In this document: positions 2,754 through 49,233 of the stretch, in pieces
How the letters are laid out: every line of letters begins with the position of its first letter
Position numbering within the stretch: position 1 is the first letter of the stretch
DNA from: Lachnospiraceae bacterium M18-1
GTDB lineage: Bacteria; Bacillota; Clostridia; Lachnospirales; Lachnospiraceae
DNA: 64,000 nt
Direction: 5' to 3'
NCBI GenBank assembly: GCA_000403295.2
Contig: KE159612.1
Location: 1-64,000 of the forward strand
Notes under the pieces: model-generated
What the model was told of the DNA's origin: nothing
The model's database searches: none
The model's input: the letters and a program-made list of their open reading frames with translations, nothing else
Program-made: the position numbers and the translations under genes

Positions 2754-5264
2754 TTACTGTTCTACGTTCTCTTCACTGTCATCGTCTTCTTCAATCTCTA
2801 TCTCTTCTCCATCTATCTCTGCAGAAGCTTTTCTAACCTTTGCAAGACTAACTACTTTTTCTTCTTCCTTCAAGTTAATCAGTTTGACCCCAGAAGTAAT
2901 TCTGCCCAATTTTGAGATATCAGCACAGGACATTCTGATAATAATTCCTTCGCTGTTAATCATCATAATCTCATCATCTTCGCTGACAGCTTTCATTCCT
3001 ATGACATCGCCGGTCTTTTCTGTGATCTTATAACATTTTACACCTTTTCCGCCCCGGTTCTGTATAGTAAATTCACCCATAATAGTACGTTTTCCAATTC
3101 CATTTTCTGAAACAATAAGCAGGCATTCGCCCTGGGTGTGAACCTGCATACCTATCACAAGATCCCCGTCAGATAAGTTAATTCCACGGACTCCCATAGA
3201 AGTCCTTCCGGTTGAGCGGACATCCTTTTCATCAAACCGTATACACTGGCCATATTTTGTTACAAGAAGAATCTCCTTCTCGTTGTCAGTAATTTTGACT
3301 TCAATCAGGTTGTCATCCTCTCGGAGTGTAATGGCCGCCAGACCTTTTTTGCGGACATTGTTATACTCATACAGCGGTGTCTTTTTCACAAGGCCGTTCT
3401 CTGTTGCCATGAACAGATACTGATTATCATCATACACCTTAATCGGAATCATTGCCGTAATCTTTTCATCAGGCATCAGCTGTAGCAGGTTGATGATTGC
3501 CGTTCCTCTGGAGGTTCTTCCTGCTTCGGGAATTTCATAAGCTTTCATCCGGTATACACGTCCTTTATTTGTAAAGAACATGATATAATTGTGGGTAAAT
3601 GTTATAAAAAGCTCTTGAATAAAATCATCATCCAGCTTCTGCATTCCCTTTATACCTTTGCCTCCGCGGTTCTGATTTTTAAAGTTGTCAATAGTCATAC
3701 GCTTGATATAGCCAAGCTTTGTCATGGTGACAACGACATCTTCCTTTGGAATCATATCTTCCATAGATATGTCAAATTCGTCATAGCCTATGCTTGTCCT
3801 TCTTTCATCCCCATATTTATCAGAAATGATCAGAATTTCTTTTTTTATTACTCCGAGTAAAAGCTTTCTATCGGCAAGGATTGCTTTTAATTCACTGATT
3901 TTTTTCATCAATTCCGCGTATTCTGCCTCAAGCTTTTCCCGTTCCAGACCTGTCAATGCACGCAGACGCATGTCAACAATTGCCTGTGCCTGTACATCTG
4001 TCAGTTCAAATCGCTTCATCAGCTCTTCTTTTGCTATTTGGACAGTCTTGGAACCTCGGATGATCTTGATTACTTCATCAATATGATCTAACGCAATCAA
4101 CAAACCTTGTAATATATGTGCACGTTCTTCCGCTTTATTTAGTTCATATTTTGTTCTTCTGGTAACGACCTCTTCCTGATGCTGAAGATAATATTTCAGC
4201 ATATCCAGCAGATTCATGACCTTTGGCTGGTTATTTACCAGAGCAAGCATAATAACTCCAAATGTATCCTGAAGCTGTGTATGCTTATAAAGCTGATTCA
4301 AAATGATATTTGGATTTACATCCCGGCGCAGCTCAATACAGATACGCATTCCTTCCCTGCTGGACTGGTCGCTAAGTTCTGTAATTCCATCAATTCTTTT
4401 ATCTTTTACAAGTTCTGCAATTTTCTCAATGAGTCTTGCTTTATTTACCATAAATGGAAGTTCTGTTACAACAATTCGATTCTTTCCATTCTGCATGGGT
4501 TCGATATTTGAAACCGCACGTACCCGAATCTTACCGCGTCCGGTCCTGTAAGATTCCTCTATCCCTCTTGTTCCAAGTATCTCCGCACCTGTAGGAAAGT
4601 CAGGACCCTTGATAATCTCCATCACATCCTCCAGGGATGTTTCACCATTCTCATCAATCTGGTCATCTATGATCTTTACAACTGCAGTAATCACTTCCTT
4701 TAGATTGTGCGGAGGAATGTTTGTTGCCATACCGACAGCAATACCATTTGTCCCATTTACCAAAAGATTAGGAAATCTGGATGGAAGTACGTCAGGCTCC
4801 TTCTCCGTCTCATCAAAGTTTGGAGAAAAGTCTACGGTATCTTTTCCTATATCTGCCGTCATTTCCATAGAAATCTTACTCAGACGAGCCTCTGTATAAC
4901 GCATGGCTGCCGCCCCGTCGCCGTCCACAGAACCGAAATTTCCATGACCATCTACCAGAGGATATCTGGTAGACCATTCCTGAGCAAGATTAACCAGGGC
5001 TCCATAGATGGAACTGTCGCCGTGGGGATGATATTTTCCCATCGTATCCCCGACAATACGCGCACATTTACGGTGTGGTTTGTCCGGGCCATTATTCAGT
5101 TCTATCATGGAATATAAAATTCTGCGCTGAACTGGTTTCAGACCATCCCTTACATCTGGAAGCGCACGGGCAGCAATTACACTCATGGCATAGTCAATGT
5201 AGGAATTTTCCATTGTCTTTTTCAGATCAACTTCATGGACTTTATCAAAAATATTATCTTCCAT
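2754..5264 (-). CDS. gyrA: DNA gyrase subunit A
   Basis: An 836 aa protein that forms the DNA-cleaving and rejoining half of gyrase and with GyrB introduces negative supercoils. The catalytic tyrosine lies in AAMRYTEAR (Tyr about 122). The quinolone region [10 protein letters not shown] starts near residue 79, so Ser is present at the position of E. coli Ser83 and Gly stands at the position of Asp87. The C-terminal beta-pinwheel carries the GyrA box as QNRGGKG near residue 530, and a second related QNRGGKG further on. The tail is very acidic. It lies 69 bp downstream of gyrB on the same strand, probably in one transcript. Confidence 0.98.
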
Positions 5265-27777: not shown

Positions 27778-27851
27778 GTCGCTATAGCTCAGTTGGATAG
27801 AGCGACCGCCTCCTAAGCGGTAGGTCGGAGGTTCAAATCCTCTTAGCGACG
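27778..27851 (+). tRNA. tRNA-Arg (anticodon CCU)
   Basis: A 74 nt cloverleaf. Acceptor arms GTCGCTA and TAGCGAC pair, with discriminator G at 27851. The anticodon loop CTCCTAA gives CCU, and the T-loop is GTTCAAATC. CCA is not encoded. A terminator follows. The 3' half is partly repeated at 29612-29660 beside integrase remains, marking this tRNA as an integration site. Confidence 0.95.
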
Positions 27852-27859
27852 CTTTCAGA

Positions 27860-27902
27860 AATGCCGAAAACACTGGATTTCCAGAGTTTTCGGCATTTTA
27901 CT
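27860..27902 (+). terminator. tRNA-Arg terminator
   Basis: ATGCCGAAAACACTGG pairs with CCAGAGTTTTCGGCAT with one bulge and is followed by TTTTA. The hairpin begins 9 bp after the tRNA. Confidence 0.8.
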
Positions 27903-27913
27903 ATATCTGAGTT

Positions 27914-27974
27914 TGCTAATCAAAATGGCGTTTCTGCTAATTATTCTAAAAATTTTGCTGAAAATCTTGCTAAT
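27914..27974. repeat. TGCTAAT repeats near tRNA-Arg (candidate integrase arm sites)
   Basis: TGCTAAT occurs at 27914-27920, 27935-27941 and 27968-27974. The same heptamer recurs at 29467-29473 and four times at 29762-29850, next to the integrase remains. Short direct repeats on both sides of att cores are typical arm-type binding sites for tyrosine integrases; the assignment is inferred. Confidence 0.45.
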
Positions 27975-28035
27975 TGAAAAGGTGAGAGTTTCAAGTTCAA
28001 GATTATAACTTTGTCACAAGTTGGGACGAAGTTAA

Positions 28036-28165
28036 AACTTATTGTGTAGGAACATCTTCAAAATATGCAGAAAAAATGTTTTGATATCAAACTTATTCAA
28101 GATGAAGGCAAGATTATGGATATCCTCATAAAAAAATGTATGATATACTCTAAATGTAAACAATA
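28036..28165 (+). pseudogene. C-terminal remnant of an ORF6N-domain protein
   Basis: Two overlapping frames translate as YCVGTSSKYAEKMF and QKKCFDIKLIQDEGKIMDIL. They match in order the end of the intact protein encoded at 28314-29279 (YHVGASLKDAGKKCFGINL...). One frameshift separates them. The rest of the gene is gone. This shows that another copy once stood just upstream of the intact gene. Confidence 0.7.
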
Positions 28166-28228
28166 AGCGTACATAAAATTTGATATTCCGATTTGGAATT
28201 TCGAGTTTATGGATAGACGAAGTAACAG

Positions 28229-28293
28229 AACTTGAAGTCGCAAATTGTGATTTCAAGTTACTCATAGTTTTGAGGTTCCAATCTGGCACTTCA
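28229..28293. repeat. Two palindromes upstream of the ORF6N gene
   Basis: 28229-28259 has AACTTGAAGTCGCAA, one central base, and the nearly exact inverse TTGTGATTTCAAGTT. 28271-28293 has TGAGGTTCCA and TGGCACTTCA around ATC. They belong to the same palindrome family as the one inside the coding sequence (28560-28590) and those downstream. Confidence 0.75.
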
Positions 28294-28313
28294 TAATAGA
28301 AAGGACGATAAAG

Positions 28314-29279
28314 ATGGCTGATACAGAACAAACAGCTCTGACAAAGGCAAATAATGATACCCAAGAAATAAGTATTGAATCAGCAGAGTCCGATATAAAA
28401 AGCATGATATATGTTATCCGCAACCAGCAGGTTATGATAGACAGCGATTTAGCGATGTTGTATCAAGTAGAAACAAAGCGATTAAATGAAGCGGCAAAAC
28501 GTAATATTTCAAGATTTCCAGAAAGATTCCGATTCCAACTGACGAAAGAGGAATATGAAAACTTGAAGTCGCAAATTGCGACTTCAAGTTTGGAGGATGA
28601 TAATGGATATGGTGGGCGTAGGAAACTGCCGTTTGTTTTTACAGAACAAGGAATTGCAATGCTTTCTGCGGTTTTGCGTAGTGATGTTGCTATCCGAGTA
28701 AGCATTAGGATTATGGACACTTTTGTGGAGATGCGGAAGTATATGGCAAATACCTCTTTGCTGTATGAGCGATTAAATGCAATGGAGGTTCGCCAGATAA
28801 ATTACCAGACGGAAACTGACGAGCGTTTTGAAAGAGTCTTTGCGTACATATCCGAGCATGAGGAATCCAGTCAAAAAGTATTTTTTGACGGACAGATTTA
28901 CGATGCATTCAGTCTGATCGTAAGTCTAATTCAAAAATCAGAGAAAGAAATCACTCTGATAGACGGATATGTGGATGTTGGAACATTGAATCTGCTTTCA
29001 AAGAAAAAGTCTGATGTTGCAGTAACTATTTATACGCAGAAGCAGACGAAGCTAACAAAAGCCGATGTTAAGAATTTCAATGCACAGTACCCGACATTGA
29101 AAATAAAATATACCAAAGTATTCCATGACAGGTTTTTGATTCTTGACCGAGCGACAGCCTATCATGTAGGAGCGTCTTTGAAAGATGCGGGAAAAAAGTG
29201 TTTTGGAATCAATCTAATTCAAGATGCAGGCATCATCAAAGACATCCTGCAAAGGTTGGAACTGGAAACGGAGAACTAA
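28314..29279 (+). CDS. ORF6N-domain protein with PLD-like C-terminal region
   Basis: A 321 aa protein. Residues about 22-120 form an ORF6N-type DNA-binding domain (MIYVIRNQQVMIDSDLAMLY, then KRNISRFPERFRFQL and FVFTEQGIAMLSAVLRS). A middle segment (about 125-190) looks coiled. The C-terminal 110 residues (LIDGYVDVGTLNLLSKK, then HDRFLILDRATAYHVGASLKD) resemble the half-site of phospholipase-D-like proteins, with H-x-R-F-L-I-L-D in place of HxKxxxxD. The cellular role is unknown; ORF6N domains occur in phage and mobile-element regulators. Codons 83-92 lie within a perfect 31 bp palindrome. A degraded relative lies just upstream and others lie at 47.9 and 49.0 kb. Confidence 0.8.
   Translation: MADTEQTALTKANNDTQEISIESAESDIKSMIYVIRNQQVMIDSDLAMLYQVETKRLNEAAKRNISRFPERFRFQLTKEEYENLKSQIATSSLEDDNGYGGRRKLPFVFTEQGIAMLSAVLRSDVAIRVSIRIMDTFVEMRKYMANTSLLYERLNAMEVRQINYQTETDERFERVFAYISEHEESSQKVFFDGQIYDAFSLIVSLIQKSEKEITLIDGYVDVGTLNLLSKKKSDVAVTIYTQKQTKLTKADVKNFNAQYPTLKIKYTKVFHDRFLILDRATAYHVGASLKDAGKKCFGINLIQDAGIIKDILQRLELETEN
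28560..28590. repeat. Perfect 31 bp palindrome inside the ORF6N gene
   Basis: AACTTGAAGTCGCAA, a central A, then its exact inverse TTGCGACTTCAAGTT. It encodes NLKSQIATSS in the reading frame. The same outer arms with a different inner pair set occur at 28229, 47871 and 49192. Confidence 0.9.
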
Positions 29280-29283
29280 GAAG

Positions 29284-29361
29284 TTCTTTGAGGTCACAAT
29301 TTGTGACCTTAGAAAAAGCAAAGAGGAATGAGAAACTCTTTGAGGTCGCAATTTGCGACCT
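29284..29361. repeat. Two palindromes downstream of the ORF6N gene
   Basis: AGGTCACAATTTGTGACCT (29291-29309) and AGGTCGCAATTTGCGACCT (29343-29361) are perfect. Both sit between CTTTG on the left and TAGAA on the right, within 80 bp of the stop codon. They share the GTC(A/G)CAA core with the coding-sequence palindrome but have different outer arms. Confidence 0.85.
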
Positions 29362-29611
29362 TAGAATAAATGCAAACAGCTTAAACTATTCTGGGATTAG
29401 TTGTGAAATGCAGGTATCAATCGGGAAAGGCTTTACAACATAACATTTCCCTAAATTCAAGCCCCTTGCTAATCGTCTGCTAAAAGGAACATTTAAAACA
29501 CCTTATAATCAGCAGTCACAGGTCGATACGAGATAACATTCTGAATCCGTGACAAGCAAGGAAATACAGGGATTAGATTACACTAAAAGGGAGCTGCCTA
29601 CTAGCAAACGG

Positions 29612-29660
29612 GGCTACTCCTAAGCGAAGGGTCGGACGTTCAAATCGTCTCAGGGACGCT
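29612..29660 (+). other. att-like partial copy of tRNA-Arg 3' half
   Basis: The stretch CTCCTAAGCG, then GGTCGGA, GTTCAAATC and GACGCT follows the anticodon-to-3' end of tRNA-Arg at 27778-27851 with about seven differences. No 5' half is present. This is what an attachment-site duplication left by tRNA integration looks like after drift. A hairpin terminator follows, as behind the real tRNA. Confidence 0.65.
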
Positions 29661-29664
29661 AAGG

Positions 29665-29702
29665 GTGCTGGAAATCAAGGATTTCCGGCACTTTTTCTTT
29701 TT
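29665..29702 (+). terminator. Hairpin with T-run after the att-like site
   Basis: GTGCTGGAAATC pairs with GATTTCCGGCAC across AAG, then TTTTTCTTTTTG follows. It mirrors the terminator behind the intact tRNA-Arg. Confidence 0.75.
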
Positions 29703-29761
29703 GAAAATCGCATATGCATAGTTAAATTGTAAAAATCTAAATGCATATTTAGTAAATATCC

Positions 29762-29850
29762 TGCTAATTGGTAGACGAACTATTATTTTAAGGATTCGAA
29801 CAATTGCTAATTGTCTGCTAATAAGAAATATTAGCCAAAAACCTGCTAAT
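29762..29850. repeat. TGCTAAT repeats beside the integrase pseudogene
   Basis: TGCTAAT occurs at 29762-29768, 29805-29811, 29816-29822 and 29844-29850, between the att-like site and the 3' end of the integrase. They are candidate arm-type sites. Confidence 0.45.
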
Positions 29851-29867
29851 AGGGTAATCTTGATAAT

Positions 29868-31147
29868 TCAATTAGCCTTTGCTCCAACTTGTGCAATTAA
29901 ATTACTTAACATGGATGTTAATTCAGGGGAGTCCTGAAGCAGTTGGACAATATTTGCAACCTCTGGCGCCAATTTCTTTTCTTCAGACGGAGTAATTTTC
30001 CGCAGATCACAATTAGCATAAAAAGCCTCTTCAAACCTTTGGGCATTGACTTTTCGATCTTCATCAAGAATATGTGCATATACGTCTGTGATCATATCAA
30101 TCTATGCATGTCCGGTATCGCCCTGTGTTGCTTTAATATCCCCTTTATTTAATTTCAGTTTGTAAGTCGTGCTTGAATGTCTGAGGGAATGAAAAACGAC
30201 ATTGGGAAGATTAAGTTTTTCTTTTAGCTTATTAAATTCCTTCTCTATAACTCTGGATTCGCACGGTCTGCCATTTGGTAAAGCAACGACCAGATTATAG
30301 TTGTAATATTCATCGCCAAAGAATGATTTTACCTCTTCTTGTTCTTCTTTCCACTTTCTCAAAATATAGGCAACAGTTTTGGGAAGCCATACCTTACGGA
30401 CACTGGATTCAGTTTTAGGGGTTTTTAATATCAAATTAGTGCTGGTTCCATTCATCATAGAAGGAAATACCTGAATAATATCTTTTTCATCCATAAACTG
30501 TCTTGCATCCTTTGAAACTCTTGAAAGTTCCTGAATAATAATAACATGCGCACCGTCAGCAGCTATATCAGAATCTGAGATGTGAACATTGTCCCATTGA
30601 AGACCAATGATCTCGCCCAAACGCAAAGAACATGCAAATGCCAGATTCATAGCAATATATAATTTTGGTTCTTTGCAACCATCCAGAGCAGTACGAATCA
30701 TTTCAGCATCCCAAATTTCTCTTTTTTTGTAAGCTGTCTTTGGACGATTGCCCATTGGAAACAGATTCCTTGACATCATCTCCCATTTTACAGCCTGATC
30801 AAAAGCACACCTTAAAACCTTGTGGATACTATTAATAACACCAGATGTTACATACTCAGATCTTGGTTTCATATTTCTTTTCAACACTGATTTTGTCTTT
30901 TTAAGGGTCTGATAGTATTCATCAACTACTTTTGGAGTGATACTTTGTATTGCTAAATCCCCAATGATCGGATTGATATAATTTGCTATCAGTGCACAAT
31001 TTGACTCGTAGGTAGATAATGCCCAGTGAGCACTGCCATAGATTTTGATGAAATCATATAAGAAATCTTTTGCTTTTTCTCTCCCTTTTCATCCTCATAA
31101 TAGTAAACAACAGAATATTTCTTCTTACGTTTAATAATTGTAGCCAT
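29868..31147 (-). pseudogene. Tyrosine recombinase (integrase), broken
   Basis: The start at 31145-31147 gives MATIIKRKKKYSVVYYYED, the usual N-terminal end of Tn916/phage-type integrases. The frame is then lost near 31080 and resumes as the core-binding and catalytic domains. Catalytic motifs seen are SLRLGEIIGL (Arg) and HSLRHSS (H-x-x-R). A TAG at 30102-30104 follows GDTGHA, cutting off the last 75 residues, which continue in frame as IDMITDVYAHILDEDRK and contain the catalytic Tyr. At least two lesions make it inactive. It sits next to the att-like site and a small excisionase-like gene. Confidence 0.85.
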
Positions 31148-47834: not shown

Positions 47835-47870
47835 ATTTTTCTTTAAAAGTTTTGTCTGATAATCTATGAA

Positions 47871-47901
47871 AACTTGAAATCACAATTTGTGATTTCAAGT
47901 T
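47871..47901. repeat. Perfect 31 bp palindrome at the break point of copy 2
   Basis: AACTTGAAATCACAA, a central T, and its exact inverse TTGTGATTTCAAGTT. The outer arms are as in the palindrome of copy 1, but the inner bases are changed symmetrically (GTCGCAA to ATCACAA). Confidence 0.9.
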
Positions 47902-48590
47902 TGGAGGATGATAATGGATATGGTGGGCGTAGGAAACTGCCGTTTGTTTTTACAGAACAAGGAATTGCAATGCTTTCTGCGGTTTTGCGTAGTGATGTTG
48001 CTATCCGAGTAAGCATTAGGATTATGGACACTTTTGTGGAGATGCGGAAGTATATGGCAAATACCTCTTTGCTGTATGAGCGATTAAATGCAATGGAGGT
48101 TCGCCAGATAAATTACCAGACGGAAACTGACGAGCGTTTTGAAAGAGTCTTTGCGTACATATCCGAGCATGAGGAATCCAGTCAAAAAGTATTTTTTGAC
48201 GGACAGATTTACGATGCATTCAGTCTGATCGTAAGTCTAATTCAAAAATCAGAGAAAGAAATCACTCTGATAGACGGATATGTGGATGTTGGAACATTGA
48301 ATCTGCTTTCAAAGAAAAAGTCTGATGTTGCAGTAACTATTTATACGCAGAAGCAGACGAAGCTAACGAAAGCTGATGTTAAGAATTTCAATGCACAGTA
48401 CCCGACATTGAAAATAAAATATACCAAAGTATTCCATAACAGGTTTTTGATTCTTGACCGAGCGACAGCCTATCATGTAGGAGCGTCTTTGAAAGATGCA
48501 GGAAAAAAGTGTTTTGGAATCAATCTAATTCAAGATGCAGGCATCATCAAAGACATCCTGCAAAGGTTGGAACTGGAAACGGAGAAATAA
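47871..48590 (+). pseudogene. ORF6N-domain gene, second copy, 5' part missing
   Basis: From the 31 bp palindrome onward this is nearly identical to 28560-29279, with few base changes (for example Asp to Asn in HNRFLILD). The duplication continues past the stop codon through both downstream palindromes to about 48839. The first 82 codons are absent: to the left of the palindrome the sequence is unrelated, and no start codon with ribosome site is present. The remaining 238 codons begin with TTG inside the palindrome. Confidence 0.85.
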
Positions 48591-48601
48591 GAAGTTCTTT
48601 G

Positions 48602-48673
48602 AGGTCACAATTTGTGACCTTAGAAAAATGCAAAGAAGAATGAGAAGCCCTTTGAAGTTGTAAATTGCGACCT
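48602..48673. repeat. Palindromes downstream of ORF6N copy 2
   Basis: AGGTCACAATTTGTGACCT (48602-48620) is perfect and identical to that at 29291. AAGTTGTAAATTGCGACCT (48655-48673) is the decayed counterpart of 29343-29361. Confidence 0.8.
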
Positions 48674-48833
48674 TAGAAAAAATGCAAACAGCTTAAATTA
48701 TTCTGGGATTTGTTGTGAAATGCAGGTATCAATCGGGAAAGATTTTACAGCGTAACATTTCCCTAAATGCAAGCCCCTTGCTAATCGCCTGCTAAAAGGA
48801 GCATCTAAAACGTCTTAAAATCAGCAGTCACAG

Positions 48834-49233
48834 GTCGACAAAGGCAAATGATGATACCCAAGAATTAAGCATTGAATCAGCAAAGTCCTACTTTCTATGA
48901 CTTGCTCAAAAAGAAATCATTTAAGACCGTAAAGGTCGGGATGTATCTGCAAATTTACAAGAGAAAACAGAAGCTTTGTCACAAATAGAGGTAGAAATAC
49001 CCGCCATAGAAATTGTGCAGCCTGCCATAGAAAAACTGATATATATAATTCGTGATAAACAGGTTATGGTAGACAGTGATTTAGCAATGCTTTATCAAGT
49101 CGAAACAGGAGCATTAAACAGAGCTGTAAAAAGAAATATAAAGAGATTTCCAGAAGATTTTAGATTTCAACTAACCGCAGAGGAATATAAGAACTTGAAA
49201 TGTCAATCTGGCATTTCAAGTTTGAACAAATAA
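48834..49233 (+). pseudogene. ORF6N-domain gene, third copy, N-terminal fragments
   Basis: Directly after the end of the copy 2 duplication, CAAAGGCAAATGATGATACC... matches the first codons of copy 1 (TKAND-TQE-SIESA-S) and then breaks off. A better frame from TTG 48976 (SQIEVEIPAIEIVQPAIEKL then IYIIRDKQVMVDSDLAMLYQ) encodes an ORF6N domain that is related but distinct. It ends LKCQSGISSLNK just after a family palindrome at 49192-49222, where homology stops. Confidence 0.75.
49192..49222. repeat. 31 bp palindrome at the break point of copy 3
   Basis: AACTTGAAATGTCA, ATC, TGGCATTTCAAGTT: the outer arms are those of the family, with a different inner core and one mismatch. The core CAATCTGGCA is shared with the upstream palindrome at 28271-28293. 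Confidence 0.8.

Follow-up and report, generated by a model that had tools for sequence, protein, structure and literature searches.

An ORF6N gene with a palindrome in its own codons

The stretch considered here (the window) comprises the first 64,000 nucleotides (nt) of contig KE159612.1 of Lachnospiraceae bacterium M18-1, and it carries an intact gene whose 321-residue product joins an ORF6N domain to a C-terminal phospholipase D-like (PLD-like) domain. The protein encoded at 28314-29279 matches PF10543 (ORF6N) with 117.1 bits, against a cut-off of 27.8. Inside the ORF6N codons lies a palindrome made of two 16-base arms and one central base (28575, the first base of codon 88). An earlier inspection of the DNA letters (the sequence-only reading) had placed a palindrome at 28560-28590 and proposed that the ORF6N domain binds it; the palindrome is perfect and extends to 28559-28591. 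As argued below from comparison of ORF6N genes, this internal palindrome is very likely the site to which the ORF6N domain of the encoded protein binds.

All nine palindromes previously listed for the window are present at, or a few bases from, the positions first proposed, and the symmetric changes of inner bases described between copies are real. A consensus scan of the 64-kb window allowing up to 3 mismatches returned 20 strand matches at 10 sites, whereas shuffled sequences are expected to give 0.52 strand matches. Coordinates are collected in Table 1; arm pairs are numbered k outward from the center of the palindrome throughout.

Table 1. Coordinates of the ORF6N gene, its putative self-site, and related sequences in the window
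Feature	Coordinates	Strand	Basis or remark
Intact ORF6N gene, 321 aa	28314..29279	+	ORF6N domain residues 31-120 plus C-terminal PLD-like domain; PDC-S05 match
Predicted recognition helix, codons 54-63	28473..28502	+	Predicted model and covariation
K55 codon, covaries with pair k7	28476..28478	+	Covariation
R56 codon, covaries with pairs k5/k4	28479..28481	+	Covariation
E59 codon, covaries with pair k4	28488..28490	+	Covariation
Internal self-site (putative), perfect palindrome AAACTTGAAGTCGCAA-A-TTGCGACTTCAAGTTT	28559..28591	.	Codons 82-93, core TCG
ORF6N-domain loop, codons 87-100, encodes palindrome right arm	28572..28613	+	pLDDT <50, probably disordered
PLD-like domain, residues ~188-317	28875..29264	+	Predicted model, residue conservation
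Upstream flanking palindrome, near-perfect, mixed core GTCGCAA / ATCACAA	28229..28259	.	
Upstream flanking palindrome, imperfect/weaker, near start codon	28270..28294	.	
Downstream flanking palindrome, near-perfect, core GTCACAA	29288..29312	.	Differs from the gene's own core
Downstream flanking palindrome, near-perfect, core GTCGCAA	29340..29364	.	Same as the gene's own core
Weak palindrome	28180..28204	.	Absent from the sequence-only reading
Further palindrome	28003..28037	.	Absent from the sequence-only reading
Palindrome, perfect, core ATCACAA, 5' junction of fragment 2	47870..47902	.	
Gene fragment 2, C-terminal part, starts at its palindrome	47874..48590	+	Sequence comparison
Palindrome 3' of fragment 2, near-perfect, core GTCACAA	48599..48623	.	
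Decayed/weaker palindrome 3' of fragment 2	48652..48676	.	
Gene fragment 3, N-terminal part, other allele	48976..49233	+	Sequence comparison
Palindrome at fragment 3 end, near-perfect	49192..49222	.	Right arm TGCC type, fits R59; left arm altered

The palindrome is kept across the family and is selected as DNA

Most of the first 96 matches to the ORF6N segment in contigs have near-perfect arms at the same codons; these matches come, among others, from Lachnospiraceae, Bacteroidota, Treponema, Pasteurella, Campylobacteraceae, and Verrucomicrobia. For a quantitative comparison we scored 216 distinct ORF6N domain stretches, from genes mostly of Bacillota, Bacteroidota, and Pseudomonadota, by the number of complementary pairs among the 11 pairs k2 to k12. 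At the expected place, 94 stretches had 11 of 11 pairs, 70 had 10, 30 had 9, and 22 had fewer. At least 10 pairs were present there in 164 of the 216 stretches, compared with 0.5% of codon shuffles, and at least 9 in 194, so that dyad symmetry is kept in most homologues, as the sequence-only reading would have it. When the best palindrome anywhere in the stretch was counted, 209 of 216 reached at least 9 pairs; some of these sit elsewhere, for example in distant genes with the residues AHQVYLMA. In pieces of 450 nt, at least 10 pairs were found anywhere in 81% of ORF6N stretches but in only 12 of 352 pieces of neighboring open reading frames, which were unscreened for the self-sites of other families.

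The extent of the symmetry was determined with 161 representatives (<85% mutual protein identity, drawn from 190 of the 216 stretches). Pairs k2 to k13 are complementary above the expectation from independent columns (for k4, 93% versus 35%), while k1 has no excess and the excess is gone by k16. The element therefore consists of two half-sites of ~12 base pairs (bp) around a free center.

A hairpin in the coding region of the messenger RNA (mRNA) would likewise give a perfect inverted repeat in the transcript with covarying arms. However, the noncomplementary cells at k2 to k12 comprise 19 G-T, 41 A-C, and 56 other combinations among 1,771 (7 G-T and 5 A-C in the RhuM family discussed below); G-T is not favored over A-C in ORF6N, and therefore no signature of RNA wobble or of an RNA hairpin is seen. 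Covariation with a DNA-recognition helix, described below, would also be unexpected for RNA, and we regard an mRNA hairpin as extremely improbable.

In a second group of genes the palindrome occupies the same position but is read in another frame, where it encodes the unrelated residues VTNCD or VANCD instead of SQIVT or SQIAT, and the viral ORF6N gene L130 likewise carries its palindrome in a shifted frame. Several distant ORF6N genes have other palindromes at this place, such as ATGTCCGAA-T-TTCGGACAT. The use of a second reading frame, the symmetric changes of the arms, and the types of mismatch uphold the earlier proposal that dyad symmetry is selected as DNA rather than for the protein sequence; by computation, selection acts on the DNA duplex.

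Residues of the predicted recognition helix covary with the palindrome core

The window protein was modeled from an alignment of 67 rows (mean predicted local distance difference test score [pLDDT], 77; predicted template modeling score, 0.42). In the predicted model, residues 54 to 63, which include residues 55, 56, and 59, form the second of two short helices, which we take as a helix-turn-helix. The left arm of the palindrome is encoded by the helix end and a turn, and the right arm by a loop that is probably disordered (pLDDT of <50 at residues 87 to 100); a fixed DNA site can therefore sit there.

Covariation was counted in 158 frame-0 genes chosen for 9 or more pairs, a score of 100 bits or more, and less than 97% identity, genes without a site being excluded. 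Mutual information with the three core bases was 1.71 bits for residue 59 and 1.21 bits for residue 56; any other column outside the palindrome codons had at most 0.37 bits, the next best being the adjacent residue 60. Residue 55 covaries with k7 (0.75 bits). Q59 occurs with A:T at k4 in 66 of 69 genes, E59 with G:C in 48 of 48, and K59 with C:G in 15 of 15; R59 (n = 21) occurs with C:G in 13 genes and with C/T in 6, and L59 is mixed (n = 5). When residues 56 and 59 are read together, RE goes with GTCGCA; VQ, AQ, TQ, and KQ go mostly with RTCACA; and NK, YR, and SL go with GTTCCA, GTG(C/A)CA, and GTTTCA, respectively. Contacts of glutamine with adenine and of arginine with guanine are familiar ones. 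Even close relatives can differ in this way: the window gene (R56, E59, core TCG) and gene L010 (V56, Q59, core TCA) share 95% domain identity outside the palindrome codons, with 6 differences.

Shared ancestry was controlled for with a tree built without the helix and palindrome columns, which requires 46 or more core changes. Where the cores CA and CG are contrasted in 12 independent supported pairs, residue 59 follows the core in an average of 11.5 and opposes it in 0 (median P value = 0.0005), and residue 56 behaves like residue 59; seven control columns go with the core in 0.2 to 2.6 pairs and against it in 0.6 to 1.8. Rarer cores provide 2 to 4 independent pairs each, all in the expected direction. 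In cross-prediction from genes less than 60% identical, residues 56 and 59 gave the correct core in 145 of 158 cases, compared with 47 of 158 for the most similar remaining domain. The table also holds for all 13 frame-shifted genes that were kept out of it and have a clear helix, some of these genes being close relatives of one another. By computation, the helix and the palindrome coevolve in these gene sequences. The covariation between internal core and ORF6N residues that the sequence-only reading had anticipated is thus located at residues 56 and 59, and it survives both the tree control and cross-prediction.

Template switching is a known process by which quasi-palindromes are turned perfect, and a functionless palindrome produced in this way, its remaining features reflecting shared ancestry, would show symmetric changes without strand bias, as we observed. 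Yet template switching predicts neither a link to a helix nor a fixed arm length, and it would not bring the consensus back in another frame. All three features were seen; we consider this explanation very improbable.

The core of the claim that the ORF6N domain binds these palindromes therefore stands after tests of symmetry, selection, and covariation, and the internal palindrome appears to be the target of the protein's own domain. From the sequences we infer the binding, a dimeric binder, and the role. An ORF6N dimer would read the two half-sites (k2 to k13) around the free center, with residues 55, 56, and 59 of the second helix reading k7, k5, and k4, respectively. Reader and site lie ~90 bp apart in one gene and therefore travel together, so that a variant would keep its cognate site behind any promoter. 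The probably disordered loop would let the protein tolerate very different sequences at the right arm, in more than one reading frame; this would account for a perfect palindrome kept in a nonconserved loop.

Several results weigh against binding by the protein's own domain. Covariation points to a functional link, and a partner with the same helix could be the binder. Thirteen of the 158 cores were mispredicted; 7 of these belong to rare residue pairs without a full match, gene L040 was scored on the wrong palindrome, and gene L028 (A56, Q59 with TCG) is a plain exception to the code. Six distant frame-shifted genes have an uncertain helix alignment; among them L225 and L228 fit, L189 and L232 do not, and two fall outside the table. 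The 22 domains with fewer than 9 pairs at the expected place also count here, as do the distant genes L230, L233, L235, and L237 to L240, which have 6 or 7 of 11 pairs there. At the flanks, half-sites match the gene's own core in 50 of 128 cases, a weak excess over the 34.4 ± 5.4 found after permutation (P value = 0.0035), and in the window flanking palindromes of both TCA and TCG types surround a gene of the RE type. Finally, the gene of BstA, a phage protein compared below, has no internal palindrome beyond chance.

Among the distant genes, L231, L234, and L241 to L243 have the core GTCCGAA and L236 to L240 have GACGAA, with helices TARK versus TASR/TAGR. A second helix-core code could be sought there, L237 to L240 having 7 of 11 pairs.

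Some loci have a mismatched core (GTG[C/T]CAA...TTGTCAC). Perfect symmetry in these loci would create an in-frame TGA at codon 86. Among nine rows that combine R59 with Y, H, or F at residue 56 (L040 excluded because of its wrong palindrome), GTGACA stands in the right arm in 6 and in the left arm in 0, and two frame-shifted genes have GTGACA in the left arm; these patterns lend some support to avoidance of a stop codon as the cause of the mismatch. The expectation that such loci show the perfect core in their flanks was rejected: L040, L035, and L044, the three with a listed flank, do not.

Related DNA-binding families

Families related by domain type were included as controls, and internal palindromes turned up in them as well. 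Of 59 distinct RhuM (PF13310) genes, 40 reach 10 or more pairs at some point in their first 900 nt; a single alignment column has 9 or more pairs in 48 of the 59, the other 11 falling short. In these 48 genes, counted without a tree control, residues 42 to 44, 46, and 47 of the RhuM alignment covary with successive bases. Residue 44 covaries with k4 and, at 1.13 bits, with k5: T goes with CG, N mostly with AA, V with GC, and A with TC. Among Bro-N genes, 14 of 30 have at least 10 pairs, and 13 of these 14 palindromes fall within alignment columns 326 to 332. KilA-N is the weakest case, with at least 10 pairs in 7 of 17 genes, two of which share the same palindrome, and less consistent places. 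Codon shuffles of RhuM, Bro-N, and KilA-N reach at least 10 pairs in 1 to 2%. A helix-core code is thus suggested by sequence for ORF6N and, similarly, for RhuM, while Bro-N and KilA-N are known by their internal palindromes alone. For pRha, 14 matches were found in 68 genomes, and the 10 loci inspected showed no clear pattern.

Flanking sites and possible autoregulation

The sequence-only reading had supposed that every protein variant is paired with a core of its own. For internal sites this agrees with the sequences; for flanking sites the own-core match is slightly above permutation and weak overall. Upstream sites with the gene's own core were found in 24 of 157 ORF6N genes and, at the same score, in 0 of 49 RhuM genes; this threshold was reached by 7.9% with the sites of other genes and by 0.2% in shuffled regions. 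Because upstream copies are few and the flanking match is weak, we regard the internal site as the general feature and the flanking sites as extras, some of which are perhaps leftovers of earlier alleles. Co-resident ORF6N genes have different cores in 17 of 21 pairs, as would be expected of private labels; random pairs share a core in 26% and differ in 74%, and this difference is therefore not beyond chance.

To see where else such sites occur, we scanned 198 Bacteroidota genomes for close matches to the TTGA-type consensus. The scan gave 21 sites in 18 genomes, compared with 0 for a reversed control pattern; 14 fall within ORF6N domains and 1 at the border of a broken one, a further 3 are no more than 300 bp from such a domain, and the last 3 are at other places. 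Seventeen of the 18 genomes belong to the 58 with an ORF6N match. Close matches are, by this computation in one phylum, nearly confined to ORF6N genes and their flanks, and a cryptic regulon of TTGA-type sites was rejected on the same result.

These data bear on the idea that the internal site is an autoregulatory operator, at which the protein would keep its own level low by blocking elongation or, where upstream sites exist, by looping to them. The excess of own-core upstream sites in ORF6N genes, the few other targets in the Bacteroidota genomes, and the annotation of 5 of 6 PHROG matches as anti-repressor are in line with it, and such negative feedback would be portable because the operator travels with the gene. 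The missing upstream sites of RhuM, a near-perfect symmetry that exceeds the need of weak feedback, and flanking cores that frequently mismatch the gene's own core speak against it. We hold this role to be a serious possibility, though short of probable.

Lac operator O2, inside lacZ, is an operator of the autoregulator type within a coding sequence and resembles the present case in pairing a DNA-binding protein with such an operator. Unlike it, the ORF6N site is located within the coding sequence for the DNA-binding domain and keeps one position across several phyla and two reading frames, and most of the genes tested have no clear upstream copy.

Self-recognition as a possible role and comparison with BstA

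A second candidate role is a cis-acting tag for self-immunity or self-recognition of a phage defense protein, with binding either restraining the protein or marking the element as self. The model for this is BstA of phage BTP1, an abortive-infection protein with a KilA-N-like domain that is held off by its cognate aba DNA (Owen et al. 2021, PMC8585504). As described there, aba is 63 bp long, spans the bstA start codon, and has terminal direct repeats, its mode of action on BstA is left open, and the BstA variants tested pair solely with their own aba element. The likeness lies in a DNA-binding protein whose DNA element overlaps its own gene and in cognate pairing, which for the window family is suggested by sequence. 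In contrast, the window element is a palindrome in codons 82 to 93, within the DNA-binding domain and off the start codon, and bstA has no comparable internal palindrome; for this reason we did not file the window gene as a BstA system.

The window protein also matches the PADLOC phage defense candidate PDC-S05 (E value = 1.2e-127; protein residues 19-317 on model positions 8-302 of 306); shorter models of this candidate cover either the ORF6N part of the protein or its C-terminal part. In the accessible portions of the papers that name it, including PMC12988326, PDC-S05 is given as sequence models of a candidate, with no mechanism or self-site, and experimental validation of most such candidates is described as pending (PMC12988326). 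That close matches seldom occur away from ORF6N genes and their flanks, and that RhuM genes have no upstream copies, would fit a tag better than a classical operator. By analogy with BstA-aba, we consider self-recognition or self-immunity a possible role, nearly as plausible as negative feedback, and the sequences do not separate the two; other roles taken together, including recombination or cleavage at the site, are unlikely.

It seems rather likely that in at least the ORF6N and RhuM families, and probably in Bro-N and KilA-N, the sequence recognized by a phage-type DNA-binding domain is written into the codons for that domain and gives each mobile element a private self-label; BstA-aba would be one experimentally known case of this wider principle. 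Reader and site would switch specificity as a pair, and the label could serve feedback, immunity of the resident element, or both. A target written in the DNA-binding domain's own codons, with both changing together, would be a form of self-reference. If this holds, the recognition code of thousands of uncharacterized proteins could be read from gene sequence alone; this little-characterized family, in which at least 7,998 relatives were scored, would supply self-annotated protein-DNA pairs for deriving it, and a precise, testable model would be available for how BstA-type proteins recognize their own DNA element.

The sequence-only reading knew of no matching system, and we found none in the open literature, preprints and most subscription papers being outside its scope. 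Within that scope, no literature was found on ORF6N with an inverted repeat or, preprints again aside, on KilA-N with operator and autoregulation, and no embedded self-site was described among the matches listed for RhuM palindromes, the KilA-N domain, the families jointly, or intragenic operators. The accessible portion of the work on a domain-swapping network that includes ORF6N, Bro-N, and KilA-N (PMC10111431) mentions no embedded target site, nor does that of PMC12629846 describe an embedded self-site. In PMC6591296, as far as its text is accessible, ORF6N genes are listed as antirepressors, and "palindrom" there belongs to the CRISPR name. DNA-level comparison gave one short plasmid match and no match to a phage record.

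The PLD-like domain, gene fragments, and possible recombination

The C-terminal half of the window protein has no Pfam match and adopts a phospholipase D-like fold in the predicted model, with H271 and R273 invariant and D278 nearly invariant (HxRx4D). We take this motif to be a variant of the HKD motif (HxKx4D), with R273 replacing the lysine. The TrmB sugar-binding domain has the same fold; the structure search covered the PLD-like part and barely the DNA-binding part, and a sequence search of solved structures gave no relative. The PLD-like domain is not the general reason for the site, because ORF6N genes of ~160 to 210 codons, too short to encode it, carry the palindrome as well. The phenomenon reaches beyond Lachnospiraceae and is independent of the PLD-like domain.

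The two further gene copies announced in the sequence-only reading are present as ORF6N-related sequences at 47874 and 48976, but they are fragments rather than whole genes. Fragment 2 is 99.3% identical to the intact gene over the 689 nt past its palindrome, and its likeness to that gene begins 5 bases left of the palindrome. Fragment 3, whose translation has by eye A at residue 56 and R at residue 59, resembles the intact gene up to 1 base beyond the right edge of its palindrome. The location of these junctions (47865-49230) within 1 to 5 bases of palindrome edges suggests recombination at the palindrome.

The site might accordingly be one of recombination or cleavage, where the protein, perhaps with the help of its PLD-like domain, would rearrange the gene that encodes it and mix alleles. 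Besides the two junctions, the mosaic look of the proteins in the alignment (by eye) and the predicted PLD-like fold with conserved H and D would fit this. The junctions number only two, however, the palindrome is also present in the short genes, and intact genes mostly retain a site that self-cleavage would disfavor; we judge this role quite unlikely.

Other loci show related arrangements. At L005:2950-4293, an intact ORF6N gene is directly preceded by a broken one, whose own palindrome has a different core. In L001, an insert of ~210 bases (~3718-3925), bounded by inverted repeats ACTAAGGCGGTTAAAT..., splits the PLD-like part of an otherwise close relative and has the appearance of a small mobile element.

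Matches from pattern scans of viral DNA (41 and 6 stretches) were mostly intergenic hairpins, often resembling terminators, and lay in stretches that had no ORF6N match. In many viral stretches (L090 to L128), the 21-base palindrome pattern appears as an intergenic hairpin, often beside poly-A or poly-T. These hairpins are probably terminators, possibly decoys, and probably unrelated.

In the window itself, the palindrome at 28003-28037 is followed, within 28003-28140, by a decayed C-terminal end resembling 29193-29248, the remnant of a further ORF6N-PLD gene. The intact ORF6N gene lies between a transfer RNA gene (27778-27851) and a minus-strand gene for a phage-type integrase (30102-30887), and the region 27778-30887 could be a small integrated element.

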